Source: Rhizobium lentis (lineage in GTDB: Bacteria > Pseudomonadota > Alphaproteobacteria > Rhizobiales > Rhizobiaceae). Taken from it: a stretch of DNA of 64,000 nt. Position numbers and translations under genes: made by a program. This document shows, one piece after another, positions 34,966-40,374 of this stretch. The DNA is taken from NCBI RefSeq assembly GCF_017352135.1, contig NZ_CP071454.1, forward strand, positions 2,691,001-2,755,000, given 5' to 3'. How positions within the stretch are numbered: the first letter of the stretch is position 1; every line of letters starts with the position of its first letter. The notes under the pieces are model-generated. The model made no database searches, had not been told where the DNA came from, and worked only from the letters and a program-made list of their open reading frames with translations.

Positions 34966-35826
34966 ATGGCCGGATTCTTGAGAAAATTGCTGCCGAAACG
35001 GTTCCGCAAGGAAGGCGTCGTAATCCCGGTGGTCAGGTTGCAGGGCGCGATCATCAGCGGCGGCGGCCAGTTCCGCCCCACCCTCAATCTCGCCAATGTC
35101 GCCCCCGTCCTGGAAAAGGCCTTCGCCATGAAGGAGGCGCCGGCCGTTGCCATAACAATCAATTCGCCGGGCGGCTCGCCGGTCCAGTCCCGACTGATCT
35201 TCACCCGCATCCGCGAGCTCGCCCGCGAAAAGCAGAAGAAGGTGCTGGTCTTCGTCGAGGATGTCGCCGCTTCCGGCGGTTACATGATCGCGCTTGCCGG
35301 CGACGAGATCATCGCCGACGCCACCTCGATCGTCGGCTCGATCGGCGTCGTCTCCGGCGGTTTCGGCTTTCCCGAACTCCTGAAGAAGATAGGCGTCGAG
35401 CGCCGCGTCTATACGGCCGGCGAGAACAAGGTGATCCTCGATCCGTTCCAGCCAGAAAAGGAAAAGGACATCGAGTACCTCAAAAGCCTGCAGCTCGAAA
35501 TCCATCAGGTGTTCATATCGATGGTGCGCGAGCGCCGCGCCGGCAAGCTGATGGACGATGCGACGGTCTTTTCCGGACTGTTCTGGAGCGGAACCCGCGG
35601 CCTCGAACTCGGCCTCGTCGACGGCCTCGGCGACATGCGCCAGGAATTGAAGCGGCGCTACGGCCAGAAGACCCGGCTTCAACTCGTCACCGCCAGCCGC
35701 GGCCTGTTCGGCCGCCGTATTCCGGGCGTATCGCCGGTTTCGCTCGAGGGGGCGGCATCCGCTGTTGCGACAGGGCTTGTCGAAGCGGCGGAAGAGAGAG
35801 CATTGTGGAGCCGCTTCGGGCTTTGA
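34966..35826 (+). CDS. S49-family (SppA/SohB-type) peptidase
   Basis: 286 residues from the ATG at 34966, after AAGGATGGGAA; the frame continues 33 codons upstream without support. VRLQGAIISGGG and AITINSPGGSPVQSRLI lead to the nucleophile Ser103 in EDVAASGGYMIALAGD; Lys155 in AGENKVILDPF is the expected general base of the Ser-Lys dyad. There is no obvious N-terminal membrane helix, so it may be cytoplasmic or peripheral. Such enzymes degrade cleaved signal peptides. The small downstream gene follows after 18 bases. Confidence 0.92.
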   Translation: MAGFLRKLLPKRFRKEGVVIPVVRLQGAIISGGGQFRPTLNLANVAPVLEKAFAMKEAPAVAITINSPGGSPVQSRLIFTRIRELAREKQKKVLVFVEDVAASGGYMIALAGDEIIADATSIVGSIGVVSGGFGFPELLKKIGVERRVYTAGENKVILDPFQPEKEKDIEYLKSLQLEIHQVFISMVRERRAGKLMDDATVFSGLFWSGTRGLELGLVDGLGDMRQELKRRYGQKTRLQLVTASRGLFGRRIPGVSPVSLEGAASAVATGLVEAAEERALWSRFGL

Positions 35827-35844
35827 GAGGAGCAAGAGAGGGGC

Positions 35845-36036
35845 ATGGCACAGCTTATTACCATTCTGGTCCTGGTCTTTTCCGGCTGGTGGCTCTACCG
35901 CCGCTTCGTCTCCGATGCCCGCAAGCTCGCCGAAAAGTCGCGCCGCGCTGAAAAGGAGCGCCAGACGGGCGCGATTGGCACGCTGGTCAAGGATCCGGCG
36001 ACAGGCGAATACCGGCTGAAGCGCGATGGGGAATAG
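35845..36036 (+). CDS. Small single-pass membrane protein, unknown function
   Basis: 63 residues after GAGAGGGG. An N-terminal membrane helix (QLITILVLVFSGWWLYRRFV, 3-22) is followed by a charged helix (SDARKLAEKSRRAEKERQ) and the segment LVKDPATGEYRLKRD, which is the conserved piece of this rhizobial family. It is 18 bases behind the S49 peptidase gene and probably co-expressed with it, which suggests a role at the membrane near that protease. The IS110 element begins 62 bases after its stop. Confidence 0.82.
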   Translation: MAQLITILVLVFSGWWLYRRFVSDARKLAEKSRRAEKERQTGAIGTLVKDPATGEYRLKRDGE

Positions 36037-36073
36037 GCGGGCGCGACTGTACCGGCCTCTCGCCCGGCGCTTG

Positions 36074-36100
36074 CCCCTCATCCGCCTGCCGGCACCTTCT
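36074..36100. repeat. Left half of a REP-like repeat split by the IS element
   Basis: Twenty-seven bases ending CACCTTCT are identical to 49304-49330, where the same repeat is unbroken. The right half continues at 37249 (CCCCG...GATATGCCGC). Confidence 0.9.
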
Positions 36101-36124
36101 TGGATAAGAAAAATGTAGGATATT

Positions 36125-36286
36125 GATGCTTGCCGGGCGGGTGGCCGCCCGCCCGGCAGCTGGTTGTCGGATCGTCACCTTCTTAGCCGTTTTGGGCTGT
36201 GGGGAGCAGGATCGCAACCGGCTCTTCATCTGGCCCGTGTGGTTGCAGGAACCTTGGGGTTCGTATCCAAGACAGGGACGACGAAG
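36125..36286 (+). ncRNA. Predicted IS110 bridge RNA
   Basis: A 5' stem-loop TGCCGGGCGGG / CCCGCCCGGCA (36131-36158) is followed by two guide loops. Target loop: closing stem 36160-36167 with 36214-36221, left guide CACCTTCT (36176-36183) identical to the target at 36093-36100, apical stem AGCC/GGCT, right guide GGGGAG (36201-36206) complementary to CTCCCC at 37247-37252. Donor loop: left guide TGGTTGC (36240-36246) identical to 37241-37247, apical stem GAACC/GGTTC, right guide TATCCAAG (36264-36271) complementary to CTTGGATA at 36099-36106. Layout and strands agree with the IS621 bridge RNA. Ends are approximate. Confidence 0.8.
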
Positions 36287-37237
36287 ATGACCGATAATAG
36301 CATGATCTGTGCCGGAATCGATGTCGGCAAAAGCCATCTCGACATTGCCCTTCATCCCAGCCGCGCAAGGCTGAGGGTCACTTATGACGCTGCTGGCCTG
36401 AAGGCGCTTGACGCCTTTCTTCAAGAGCATGACGTCAGCCGCATCGGCTTCGAAGCCTCCGGCGGCTATGAATGGCGGTTGCTGGCGCATCTGCGGGCCG
36501 GCAAGCGGCCGGCGGCGCGTCTGCAGCCGGCGCAATTGCGCTTCTTCGCCAAGAGCCGGCTCAAGCGAGCCAAGAACGATCGCCTCGATGCCGTGCTGAT
36601 TGCGCTCTTCACGGCAAGCCTCGAGCAGTTGCCGGCGCTGCCGGACGCACGCTTCGACAAACTGGCCGCCGAACTGACCTATCTGGAACAGATCGAGCAG
36701 CAGATCGCCCTGGTCAAGACCTTTGCCGAGACCGCCTTGTCGGAGGCGATCAAGCGCCGTCATGCGCGCGAGGTCGCCCGCCTCGAAACCTGCCGAAAGG
36801 CCCATCTGCTGCGGCTCGAAAAGACGGTTCGCGACGATTGTGACCTTTCGCAACGGCTCGATCTGCTGACCTCTATCAAAGGCATCGGGCTGCGCAGCGC
36901 CCTGTGCCTGATCATTCGGCTACCCGAGCTCGGAAATGCTGGCCGCGGCGAAATCGCCGCCCTTGCCGGCGTCGCACCCTATGACGACGATAGCGGTAAA
37001 TATCATGGCAGACGCCGCATCCAGGGTGGTCGCGAACGCCTGCGAAAGAGCCTGTTCATGTGCGCGTTTACGGCAACCCGGCACAATCCGGATCTCGCCT
37101 CTTTCTACACGCGCTTGCGTCAGAGCGGAAAGGAGCACCTGTGCGCCGTTATAGCCGTCGCCCGAAAACTCATCGTTCTCGCCAACACAATCCTCTTTCG
37201 CAAGACCGAATGGACGCCACAACACCGCAAGAATTAA
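36287..37237 (+). CDS. IS110-family recombinase (transposase)
   Basis: 316 residues from the ATG at 36287. The N-terminal RuvC-like domain shows the acidic set D12 (CAGIDVGKSHLDIAL), E56 (GFEASGGYEW), D98 and D101 (KNDRLDA). A coiled coil (125-185) leads to the Transposase_20 domain with SIKGIGLRSALCLI and the catalytic Ser236 in AGVAPYDDDSGKYHGRRRI. All catalytic residues are present and the frame is unbroken, so the copy may be active. The enzyme joins target and donor DNA held by the bridge RNA encoded just upstream. Confidence 0.95.
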   Translation: MTDNSMICAGIDVGKSHLDIALHPSRARLRVTYDAAGLKALDAFLQEHDVSRIGFEASGGYEWRLLAHLRAGKRPAARLQPAQLRFFAKSRLKRAKNDRLDAVLIALFTASLEQLPALPDARFDKLAAELTYLEQIEQQIALVKTFAETALSEAIKRRHAREVARLETCRKAHLLRLEKTVRDDCDLSQRLDLLTSIKGIGLRSALCLIIRLPELGNAGRGEIAALAGVAPYDDDSGKYHGRRRIQGGRERLRKSLFMCAFTATRHNPDLASFYTRLRQSGKEHLCAVIAVARKLIVLANTILFRKTEWTPQHRKN

Positions 37238-37248
37238 ACATGGTTGCT

Positions 37249-37360
37249 CCCCGTAAACGGGGCGAAGGGGATATGCCGCACCGGTTTCCTCAATATCGAC
37301 GCAGTGTTTGGCACGTCCCCTCGCCCCGCGAGCGGGGAGAGGGTTAGGGTGAGGGGCAGC
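37249..37360. repeat. Right half of the split REP-like repeat and a second copy
   Basis: 37249-37279 (CCCCG-TAAA-CGGGG core, then GAAGGGGATATGCCGC) completes the repeat interrupted by the IS. A second related palindrome, CTCGCCCCGCGAGCGGGGAG with flanking GTGAGGGG, lies at about 37317-37358. Confidence 0.75.
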
Positions 37361-37474
37361 CGAATTCCTCTCCATGTCGGCACCACCACCTCCGCGATCG
37401 CCGCAAAAGCCTTGACCCCCGCCGCCCTCCATGGCACCTGTCGCGCCGATCTATCACGCCAGCGGTGCCATTCC

Positions 37475-38431
37475 ATGTCAGCTCTCCCCGACCATATGAA
37501 CCCGAAGCGCTCCTTCCAGGCGCTGATCCTGACCCTGCATAATTACTGGGCGGACAAGGGTTGCGCGGTGCTGCAGCCCTACGACATGGAAGTCGGCGCC
37601 GGCACCTTCCATCCGGCCACGACGCTGCGCGCCCTCGGCCCGAAGCCCTGGAAGGCGGCCTACGTCCAGCCGTCGCGGCGCCCGTCCGACGGCCGCTATG
37701 GCGAAAACCCGAACCGGCTGCAGCATTATTACCAGTATCAGGTCATCCTGAAGCCGAATCCGCCTAACCTGCAGGAACTCTATCTCGGCTCGCTGGCGGC
37801 GATCGGCCTCGATCCGCTGCTCCACGACATCCGTTTCGTCGAGGACGATTGGGAAAGCCCGACGCTCGGCGCCTGGGGCCTCGGCTGGGAATGCTGGTGC
37901 GACGGCATGGAAGTCTCGCAGTTCACCTATTTCCAGCAGGTCTGCGGCATCGAATGCGCGCCGGTCGCGGGCGAACTGACCTATGGTCTGGAACGCCTCG
38001 CCATGTATGTCCAGGGCGTCGACAATGTCTATGACCTGAACTTCAACGGCCGCGAGGGCGACGAGAAGATCAGCTATGGTGACGTCTTCCTGCAGGCCGA
38101 GCAGGAATATTCGCGCCACAATTTCGAATTCGCCAATACCGAGATGCTGCATCGCCATTTCGTCGATGCCGAGAAGGAATGCCGGGCGCTGCTCGATGCC
38201 GGCGCCCCTGGCGACAACGCCAACCAGCGCCTGCACAAATGCGTCTTCCCGGCCTATGACCAGTGCATCAAGGCCAGCCACGTCTTCAACCTGCTCGACG
38301 CCCGCGGCGTCATCTCGGTCACCGAGCGCCAGAGCTATATCCTGCGGGTGCGCACGCTGGCCAAGGCCTGCGGCGAAGCCTTCCTGCTGACCGACGCCGG
38401 CGGCGTCAACCTGCCGAGCGAGGCCGCGTAA
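37475..38431 (+). CDS. glyQ: Glycyl-tRNA synthetase alpha subunit
   Basis: 318 residues from the ATG at 37475; an ATG at 37496 ([18 protein letters not shown]) is equally possible and neither has a good ribosome-binding site. Class II core motifs: [61 protein letters not shown] and [12 protein letters not shown]. The alpha subunit binds glycine and ATP and works as alpha2-beta2 with GlyS. The partner gene is 11 kb away on the other strand. The IS110 element ends 226 bases upstream, so the native promoter may have been displaced. Confidence 0.96.
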
Positions 38432-38598
38432 AAAGCCGTCTCAAAAATTCCGTCGCTTCCGGCGCTACGCTTCTTTTGTATTGCGCAAACCGCCCCCACA
38501 TTGTTTTGTCGGGTGTTGGATCAGGTATGGCTGCGGTATTTCTTTTGAAGAGCGATCTTTTTTACTTTAAACTTTCCTATGAGAATTCAAGCCCAAGG

Positions 38599-40374
38599 AT
38601 GTTGCGCCTTTTATCATGGCTCATCTTATGCGCCATGCTGGTCCTTCTGACCTCTTGCAGCGATTTCGACAAAGAGTTCACCGTCCAGTCGGCAAATAGT
38701 ACGATAGAAGTTCACACCGACGGCGCTGCCTTTGTGTTGGAAAACTTCGACATCTCAGTCAAAAGGGCGGAAAATTACGGCGGCGTTTACGTTGATATCC
38801 CCCAACGTTTCACGGATGCGTCAGGTGGTGTTCACTGGCGCGATTTCGAACTGGTCGCAGCCCGGCGAGACGGACGCGACGAATACTATTCCTGGGAAAA
38901 TAACGTGCCGGGCTACTCGATTTATATCGGAGAGGAGCACTGCAAAGACTGCTCTGCAAATCTGCCCACGGGTCTTGCAAAAATCCAGATCGCTTACTGG
39001 CTCGGACGCCTGGTTCGGCAGGAAGGAGACCGCGAGGTTCTCTTCCTGCCGGCCTATATGGGCCGCGTGCACGGCCAGGGAGCGAAAAAAAAAACGCTGA
39101 CTCTCAAGTTGCCGCCGGGCGGAACGATACGCCCTTTGAAACAGGATCGGCAGGGAGCCTATGACATCATGCGGAGCGCACCGAACGAGATTTTGGTGTC
39201 CATTCCGGCAGGTAAAGGGGATCGAGTCCTACCTGATATCGAGATCGAATATCCCGCAGGGACCTTTGTGACCATAACGAGCGGCAAGCGGGTGCAGTGG
39301 TGGCTGTCCGATCACTTTCTCCCGTTCATCAGCATTTTGGGACCAATCGTCGCCGGTCTGTTTGTCCTTACTCGGTTGGGGCAGGCCTGGCGATTGCCTG
39401 CACCTTTGATCGCTTTCGATAGCAAGAAGACGGAGAGCACATCGCCTGCGTTGGCGGCCTATTTGTTTTCGAACTGGAAGCCGGAGGCCGCGAAGCCGGC
39501 CTTCATGGCGTCTGCCTGCCATCTCGCAATGAAGAGACTGCTTCGCATTTCCAGCCTTGGTGAGGATGCCGAAGCTTCGGATTTGTCTGCCAGACAGGTG
39601 CGCAAGAAAGGCAAGGTGGCGCGCGCCAGATGGTATGGCCTTCCCGCGGTGACGCGTTCGGTATTTGGTCGAATTGAAGGAGAGCGGCCTGTCAATGACC
39701 GGCGGACGGTCTTAAATGCCCTGTATGGTTTCGAACGTGACTTGCATCAGACAGTCACCGAGGAATATCGGAAAGTTAGAGGCGGCACAGATCGAACACG
39801 GCTGGTGGCTGCGGCCATCATTCTGGCTCTTGGCACTGCTGCCGCCTATTTCTCGGGCCTCTTGATCTTTTCCGTTTCCATCTGCGGGATATTGTTAGTT
39901 CTTTTCATAGTTGTAATGATGTTCCGCCACCCGGAGCGGTTTCCCATGGCAGTCAGCACCTCCGAGCAATTCAAGCAGGCGCTCACTCTGTTTCTGGGTT
40001 TTCCGGCGATAGTGATTGCTGCACTTTCCTACATCGGTACGACTGAGGTTATCAGCGAACAGCGGCCATATCTGATGGCGATTTTATTGGATATCGTCGG
40101 CATTGTGACTGTTGTGGCGCTGCGCATGCCCACGCCGAAGCAGCGGCAGATCCATAATGACATTCTCGTATTGAATCGCTATTTCCTCGGAGAAATCGAA
40201 GGCCCGGAAATGTCGGTGGAATGCTACGAGCACCACCTTCCTTTCGCTGTTGCCCTGAACGTCGAGCAACGCTGGACCGAGCGCTTCAATCGCTGGCGAG
40301 AAAGCGAAAAGATGGAGACCTATGCTCCGGATTGGCGGAGCAGTTCTTTGAGGGACGGCGATATCAAGGTCTGA
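38599..40374 (+). CDS. DUF2207-like membrane lipoprotein
   Basis: About 591 residues from the ATG at 38599, which gives a lipoprotein signal (MLRLLSWLILCAMLVLLTSC, lipobox LTSC); an ATG at 38527 is in frame. The exported N-terminal domain (VQSANSTIEVHTDGAAFVLE, then GGVYVDIPQRF) matches the second DUF2207 gene at 42.4 kb. Three to five membrane helices follow (about 240-260, 400-445, 480-530), with a cytoplasmic tail ending without the Gly-rich segment. Base use is visibly more A/T-rich than in the neighbours, and an A10 tract lies at 39085-39094. Function unknown; next to lemA. Confidence 0.82.
   Translation: MLRLLSWLILCAMLVLLTSCSDFDKEFTVQSANSTIEVHTDGAAFVLENFDISVKRAENYGGVYVDIPQRFTDASGGVHWRDFELVAARRDGRDEYYSWENNVPGYSIYIGEEHCKDCSANLPTGLAKIQIAYWLGRLVRQEGDREVLFLPAYMGRVHGQGAKKKTLTLKLPPGGTIRPLKQDRQGAYDIMRSAPNEILVSIPAGKGDRVLPDIEIEYPAGTFVTITSGKRVQWWLSDHFLPFISILGPIVAGLFVLTRLGQAWRLPAPLIAFDSKKTESTSPALAAYLFSNWKPEAAKPAFMASACHLAMKRLLRISSLGEDAEASDLSARQVRKKGKVARARWYGLPAVTRSVFGRIEGERPVNDRRTVLNALYGFERDLHQTVTEEYRKVRGGTDRTRLVAAAIILALGTAAAYFSGLLIFSVSICGILLVLFIVVMMFRHPERFPMAVSTSEQFKQALTLFLGFPAIVIAALSYIGTTEVISEQRPYLMAILLDIVGIVTVVALRMPTPKQRQIHNDILVLNRYFLGEIEGPEMSVECYEHHLPFAVALNVEQRWTERFNRWRESEKMETYAPDWRSSSLRDGDIKV

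Follow-up and report, generated by a model that had tools for sequence, protein, structure and literature searches.

The window analysed here is a stretch of 64,000 nucleotides from Rhizobium lentis (NZ_CP071454.1, positions 2,691,001 to 2,755,000). It carries an IS110-group insertion sequence that interrupts a palindromic repeat and that combines a recombinase gene with a predicted bridge RNA in its left end. The features of the locus, all on the forward strand and numbered within the window, are as follows.

36073..36100, +, left portion of the rhizobial palindromic repeat that the element interrupts (the target), recognised from joined flanks that recur in the genus
36099..36100, +, left CT core dinucleotide at the border of flank and left end, from the sequence and from the own-genome matches of the joined flanks (1-103 and 102-266), which overlap by these 2 bases
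36101..37248, +, IS110-group insertion sequence of 1,148 bp, with a single CT core retained per side and three copies with identical ends
36119..36124, +, putative −10 element GATATT of a circle-only promoter, read from the sequence without a control
36130..36274, +, predicted bridge RNA (5′ stem-loop, target-binding loop, donor-binding loop), from a covariance model and helix covariation, ends approximate
36176..36183, +, left target guide (LTG) CACCTTCT, identical to the left flank 36093-36100 at 8/8 positions
36199..36206, +, right target guide (RTG) GUGGGGAG / GTGGGGAG, pairing with CTCCCCGT at 37247-37254
36240..36246, +, left donor guide (LDG) TGGTTGC, identical to 37241-37247 over 7 nt
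36264..36271, +, right donor guide (RDG) TATCCAAG, complementary to CTTGGATA at 36099-36106 over 8 nt
36287..37237, +, recombinase gene, 316 aa, with a RuvC-like DEDD domain and a Tnp domain with the catalytic serine
37247..37248, +, right CT core dinucleotide, from the 2-base overlap of the joined-flank matches
37249..37361, +, right portion of the repeat that the element interrupts, recognised from joined flanks that recur in the genus

The sole open frame of the element runs uninterrupted through 316 aa from an ATG at 36287 to a stop at 37237, leaving a non-coding left end of 186 bases before the ATG and a right end of 11 bases after the stop. Its product matches DEDD_Tnp_IS110 (PF01548) and Transposase_20 (PF02371) in Pfam, and phmmer aligned residues 8-303 with the solved relatives IS621 (E 9.1e-15) and ISCro4 (E 1.1e-14). 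In this alignment D12, E56, D98, D101, and S236 fall on D11, E60, D102, D105, and S241 of IS621, whose DEDD and serine residues have been named as essential (PMC11208158); we infer that the PDB-chain numbering of IS621 equals that of the paper plus 2. The five residues are invariant across the window protein and four relatives, down to 45% identity, and the initial annotation had rightly described the catalytic residues as apparently intact. Three copies of the element are present in the host genome, the other two being 98% and 97% identical to the window copy, at separate sites, with the same junctions and no stops inside. The two domains, the catalytic residues and the long left and short right ends, together with the structured left-end RNA and four guides that meet at a shared core, place the element in the IS110 group. 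It is a small, apparently intact jumping gene with its own predicted guide RNA, and it belongs to the known IS621-like kind, for which the bridge-RNA logic has already been described.

Within the left end, the initial annotation had read four guide segments against the DNA that they should contact (8 nt of left target, 6 nt of right target plus two wobble pairs, 7 nt of left donor, and 8 nt of right donor), with the left guides identical to the top strand, the right guides complementary to it and all four meeting at a CT core. Every match was found at the claimed length and in the claimed orientation, the RTG forming six Watson–Crick pairs and two G·T wobbles with 37247-37254, and the layout known from IS621 fits in its left-end RNA, its DEDD and serine residues, and its CT core. 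As a control we used 20,000 dinucleotide-preserving shuffles of 36129-36286, of which 56 held the left-target 8-mer match, 3,380 the right-target 6-mer, 482 the left-donor 7-mer, and 4 the right-donor 8-mer. The right-target match by itself is thus weak, as it occurs in 17% of shuffles, but the set of four is not: at least two guide matches arose in 94/20,000 shuffles, and all four, in order, in 0/20,000.

Comparison of relatives gives the predicted RNA a structure. Alignment of 18 left ends yielded an RNAalifold consensus with double changes in 26/42 pairs, five of the 42 being the donor end against the RDG. In the trimmed alignment, 94.4% of cells pair and double changes occur in 24/37 pairs, compared with 13.9 in shuffles; 0/500 shuffles scored as high, and slid versions dropped to 7-10 pairs. 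The folding of homologues that had been proposed as a check returned covarying helices. The window left end folds with a z of −2.46 relative to shuffles, and the covariance model (R1) matches it at 36132-36274 (E 3.3e-27), a match that is not independent since the window is among the 18 training sequences of R1. Outside a set of 39 loci, mostly from Vibrio and Shewanella at ~30% identity, R1 matches 68/74 loci, 18 of these being the training sequences; the six loci without a match at E ≤ 0.01 are L011 and L014 (contig ends), L030, L039, L085, and L104. The set of 39 gave only two convincing matches, both from Sphingomonas (L093, L094), with L086 at E 0.49 and none for any Vibrio or Shewanella locus. 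Because R1 gives no match there, the Vibrio/Shewanella loci among L043-L083 may have a different RNA layout. Six of the 76 R1 matches are weak reverse-strand matches beside the true one and were treated as spurious. The DNA of the 5′ stem-loop (36131-36158) is a near-perfect palindrome, which produces a self-match on the opposite strand (28-bp matches), and L040 carries the bridge RNA twice, in mirror image, upstream of tnp (2221-2488), either as an assembly palindrome or as a real inverted copy. An Rfam search of 35000-39000 returned nothing above threshold; Ysr276, on the other strand at 35112-35302, was dropped with 19.6 bits against a gathering score of 100.

The element lies in a sequence that recurs across the genome. 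The target string of the window copy is CACCTTCTCCCCGT, and all three genome copies (3/3) share the insertion point CACCTT^CT^CCCCG, which falls within the left arm of a palindromic sequence starting near CCCCTCATCCG, so the insertion flanks of the other copies are as the initial annotation had proposed that they be checked. The exact 12-mer target CACCTTCTCCCC occurs 62 times in the 6.4 Mb genome versus 2 times for the reversed control, and the 14-mer ending in GT occurs 12 times versus 0. When the flanks were joined (35998-36100 + 37249-37411), they matched in 44/120 genomes of the genus, own included (E ≤ 1e-25), mostly over 36073-36100 + 37249-37361 (about 76-216 of the query). Most of the 44 genomes hold several places of the repeat each, with at most six places scored per genome. 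In one congener (G490) the syntenic site is empty and the repeat uninterrupted, with 857 aligned columns at 89% and no gap at the junction; CG stands there where the core would be CT, which marks it as a diverged site. Judged by these recurrences, the target is a palindromic intergenic Rhizobium repeat of ~140 bp with dozens of copies, and the target loop of the window clade reads as written for CACCTT-CT-CCCC(GT). As the target string lies in an arm of an intergenic repeat, insertions there would land between genes. The rhizobial target specificity proposed earlier thus holds as far as guide-matched sites are concerned, while the nature of the target as a multi-copy intergenic palindromic repeat had been missed. 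The repeat presumably resembles what the rhizobial literature names RIME (Rhizobium-specific intergenic mosaic element) or REP. RIMEs exist in Sinorhizobium meliloti (PMC2573895).

Relatives of the transposase are found at E ≤ 1e-60 in 5/150 relatives' genomes and at E ≤ 1e-45 in 15/397 genomes of the order, own included in both, and a scan of the species collection gave 75 transposase loci. Copies at 44-45% identity are present in 24 Sinorhizobium plasmid records (E ≤ 1e-60), and 126 proteins among 7,999 candidates scored reach E ≤ 1e-80; a scan of viral contigs found no relative, as 37 stretches matched a pattern and 0 were confirmed. One locus (L025), in a record titled Mycobacterium sp. 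KBS0706, carries an element of this otherwise alphaproteobacterial group, which may reflect a misnamed or contaminated assembly, or a transfer.

A lack of covariation of guides with flanks and ends across related elements would, according to the initial annotation, have spoken against its reading. The ends of relatives were placed by script from donor guides only, which leaves the target flanks free to serve as an independent test. From the 76 R1 matches, 57 were kept; the 19 dropped had an incomplete loop (7), ends missing or near a contig edge (9), or were artefacts (3; two in L040 and one in L105). Some places had been fetched twice (L008/L022, L009/L021, L020/L099), and the tests therefore use distinct guide sets. 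Over 36 such sets, the own left score was 5.27 of 7, where permutation gave a mean of 3.47; the own right score was 4.56 of 6 against 2.34, and the combined score 9.84 against 5.81, with 0/100,000 permutations as high. As guide sets and sequences share ancestry, this and the following permutation counts should not be taken as strict probabilities. The own guide was best or tied-best in 24/36 sets for both halves, in 19/36 for the left and in 23/36 for the right. After single-linkage grouping of similar guides into 10 clusters, left and right together scored 10.34 versus 5.99 (0/50,000 as high), with the own guide best in 10/10 combined and in 9/10 for the right alone (1/50,000 as high), and omission of eight rows with doubtful or wrong ends changed the cluster result little. 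Right donor bases 3-8 scored 3.78 of 6 against the RDG versus 3.15 (0/100,000; 32 sets, four doubtful rows omitted) in a test that is partly circular, the RDG having also served to place the end; the left donor match served as the very means of locating the right end and stands outside the covariation test. The expected covariation is thus present: guides differ between related elements and tend to fit the site at which each element is inserted.

Among the low scorers, L048, L049, L027, and L102, as well as L095-L098 at their right ends, have script ends that are misplaced or doubtful (inspection by eye puts the actual right ends of L095-L098 at GGTTGCG|CT|TCTCC), and L091 lacks a long open frame. 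For the poor left match of L057 and L063 no cause was found, and the close relative L021 matches at only 6/8 left-target bases. Related copies at sites unrelated to the guides had been named as counter-evidence; close copies occupy guide-matching sites. Genome G138 holds four copies of one element (L010, L013, L016, L017), two with similar flanks and two with different flanks that keep an ATCCC/ATTCCT-like left and a CTTC right side, approximately as the guides predict.

A second group of elements uses the same repeat in another register. In S. meliloti, L095-L097 are inserted at GGCAC^CT^TCTCCCCG or GGCCAC^CT^TCTCCCCG, 3 bp upstream of the insertion point of the window element, and their guides read CCGGCAC then CA at the core on the left and the complement of CTTCTCC on the right. 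L078 (Rhizobium sp. 2MFCol3.1), with a broken transposase and a bridge RNA with guides for the rhizobial repeat, shares this register with the guides GGCATCT and the complement of CTTCTCC. L027 shows the same 3-bp shift of register and guides on its right side alone, as N masks its left end. A single genomic repeat is thus entered at two points that lie 3 bp apart, and the guides have shifted accordingly; this amounts to a natural experiment and, as comparative evidence, speaks strongly for a guide RNA that determines where the element lands. A further ISRm19-like element, L098 (S. kummerowiae, NZ_CP140300.1, ~1369446-1370621), sits at GGTCGGCAC^CT^TCTCCTGG within a gene; its joined flanks restore one open frame of 100 residues with a Sulfate_transp match (E 1.5e-6), and the element thus splits a gene of the sulfate permease family, at a site that fits its guides and lies outside the repeat. 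Because of this insertion, the guide match, rather than the repeat or its palindrome, is the common factor.

The two registers were also compared by tree tests, for which the groups were named after the targets had been seen. L078, placed by means of a single 148-residue stretch of its broken protein, is nested with the Caulobacter-type elements L034, L035, L038, and L042 at a support of 99/98 in a 26-row tree. A single clade of L078 with all rhizobial-repeat rows was rejected (p-AU 1.3e-4, 26 rows), as was one with the ISRm19-like rows alone (p-AU 2.1e-5, 26 rows), and a lineage of L078 separate from the window and ISRm19-like clades is supported by these placements. At least two separate IS110 lineages (ISRm19-like and the Caulobacter-type L078) may thus each have acquired target loops directed at one and the same base of the rhizobial repeat. 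The window and ISRm19-like clades together were rejected without L023 (p-AU 0.0016, 7 rows of 39) and were not rejected with it (p-AU 0.50, 8 rows of 25). Independent convergence of these two clades on the repeat was therefore dropped, as the inclusion of L023 removes its tree support.

In the mechanism that we propose, the two CT cores would recombine with each other to release the element as a circle, and the joined ends would create a promoter, TTGCTT-N17-GATATT, from which a bridge RNA of ~145-155 nt would be transcribed from the left end. A recombinase tetramer would bind this RNA, its donor loop holding the circle junction and its target loop the genomic DNA; both DNAs would then be cut at the CT core and their strands exchanged. 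The −35 TTGCTT would form from 37244-37248 joined to 36101, with a spacer of 17. In reconstructed junctions of relatives and copies, TTGCTT is found in 23/32 and TANNNT exactly 17 bases on in 12/32, counts that are without a control and include one junction (L095) built on a misplaced right end, TTG and CTT belonging to the conserved donor ends anyway. A junction promoter has been described for IS621 (PMC11208160, PMC11208158).

Taken together, these observations make it very probable that the window holds an insertion sequence of the IS110 group whose movement relies on an RNA-guided recombinase. That all three genome copies lie within the repeat would also be expected if the recombinase protein or the hairpin shape of the repeat were recognised and the guide matches were a by-product or coincidence. 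Repeats of this sort are also targets for members of other IS families, ISRm22 (IS4 family) among them (PMC1525189). Recognition by the protein or through hairpin shape is nevertheless a very unlikely explanation: guides vary with flanks over the 36 sets, the insertions of L095-L097 and L078 (and of L027 on its right side) lie 3 bp away with guides shifted to fit, and L098 is guide-matched in a coding gene yet not in a repeat. Somewhat less remote, though still improbable, is a decayed and immobile relic with a fossil bridge RNA. Several relatives do look broken, with a short open piece only (L078, L072, L073, L084, L091), but the window element has its 316-aa frame open with all five catalytic residues aligned, and its three copies lack internal stops at their separate sites. 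It is because these copies are 97-100% alike with open frames that we regard the element as apparently working; both its activity and the expression of its RNA are inferred.

An element of the IS1111 type, with the guide RNA in its right end and the guide order reversed, would have broadly the same protein family (PF01548, PF02371). We consider this reading practically negligible, as the non-coding sequence lies on the left (186 bases), the right end of 11 bases holds no guide RNA, the bridge RNA model matches only the left end within the window, and the guide for the left flank precedes that for the right, which is the IS110-type order (PMC11187229).

The closest described parallel to the element is IS621 of Escherichia coli (PMC11208160, PMC11208158), which shares the DEDD and serine recombinase, the left-end RNA with a 5′ stem-loop and two guide loops, the CT core, a circle-junction promoter (putative here), and insertion in a multi-copy extragenic palindrome. 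The window protein differs as a full-length but distant match (phmmer E 9.1e-15), its target is the rhizobial repeat CACCTTCT/CCCC, and its right donor guide is an unbroken 8-nt run, whereas that of IS621 has nine RNA bases, discontiguous, for seven donor bases (PMC11208160). The seekRNA systems ISEc21 and ISMch6 (IS110 type) and ISEc11 and ISXne4 (IS1111 type) are alike in that the RNA matches both target strands and that guides are naturally redirected between relatives; their targets are different, and Rhizobium, Sinorhizobium and ISRm are absent from the main text of that article (PMC11187229). In Pseudomonas, 7/7, 7/7, and 6/6 copies of ISPpu9, ISPpu10, and ISPa11 are inserted at one point in an extragenic palindrome (PMC1525189), a REP of other sequence, and ISPa11 at least is of the IS1111 type (PMC11187229). 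ISRm19 of S. meliloti, also of the IS110 family, has 4/4 copies in REP (Tobes and Pareja 2006, PMC1525189). An element 45% identical to ours occupies two places in pSymB (NC_003078.1) and is probably ISRm19, judging from its copy number and repeat. The ISRm19-like elements differ from the window element in their insertion 3 bp upstream in the same repeat, at GGCAC^CT^TCTCC, and in having their own guides.

Targeting of palindromic repeats was known before for ISPpu9, ISPpu10, and ISRm19 (PMC1525189) and for IS621, and PMC11208160 describes how bridge RNAs work, together with REP sites and predicted orthologues in their thousands; the RNA-guided principle itself was published in 2024. Within the open-licence literature searched, we came across no previous description of such guides in an element from rhizobia. 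What appears to be new is therefore the set of guides for a rhizobial element of known bridge-RNA type: a compact, apparently intact rhizobial IS110 system with its full address, target and donor, readable from the sequence, which could serve as a rhizobial point of departure for tools of programmable insertion.

It is, in our judgement, an evenly balanced question whether bridge-RNA elements, on entering any host lineage, come to track an intergenic palindrome that is common there. If true in general, host repeats would be a selected "address" and guide loops would record past hosts. The broader proposal that all relatives target repeats was dropped: three of the four target strings tried are multi-copy, two of the four being the same rhizobial repeat, and the 13-mer of L036 occurs once (control 0); the L024 genome, probed with the target of L036 and not its own, gave 1 versus 0. 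Against reversed controls, target strings were counted 41 versus 2 times in the genome of L078, 16 versus 1 in that of L027, and 7 versus 0 in pSymB, and 93 versus 0 in that of L026 with one mismatch allowed.
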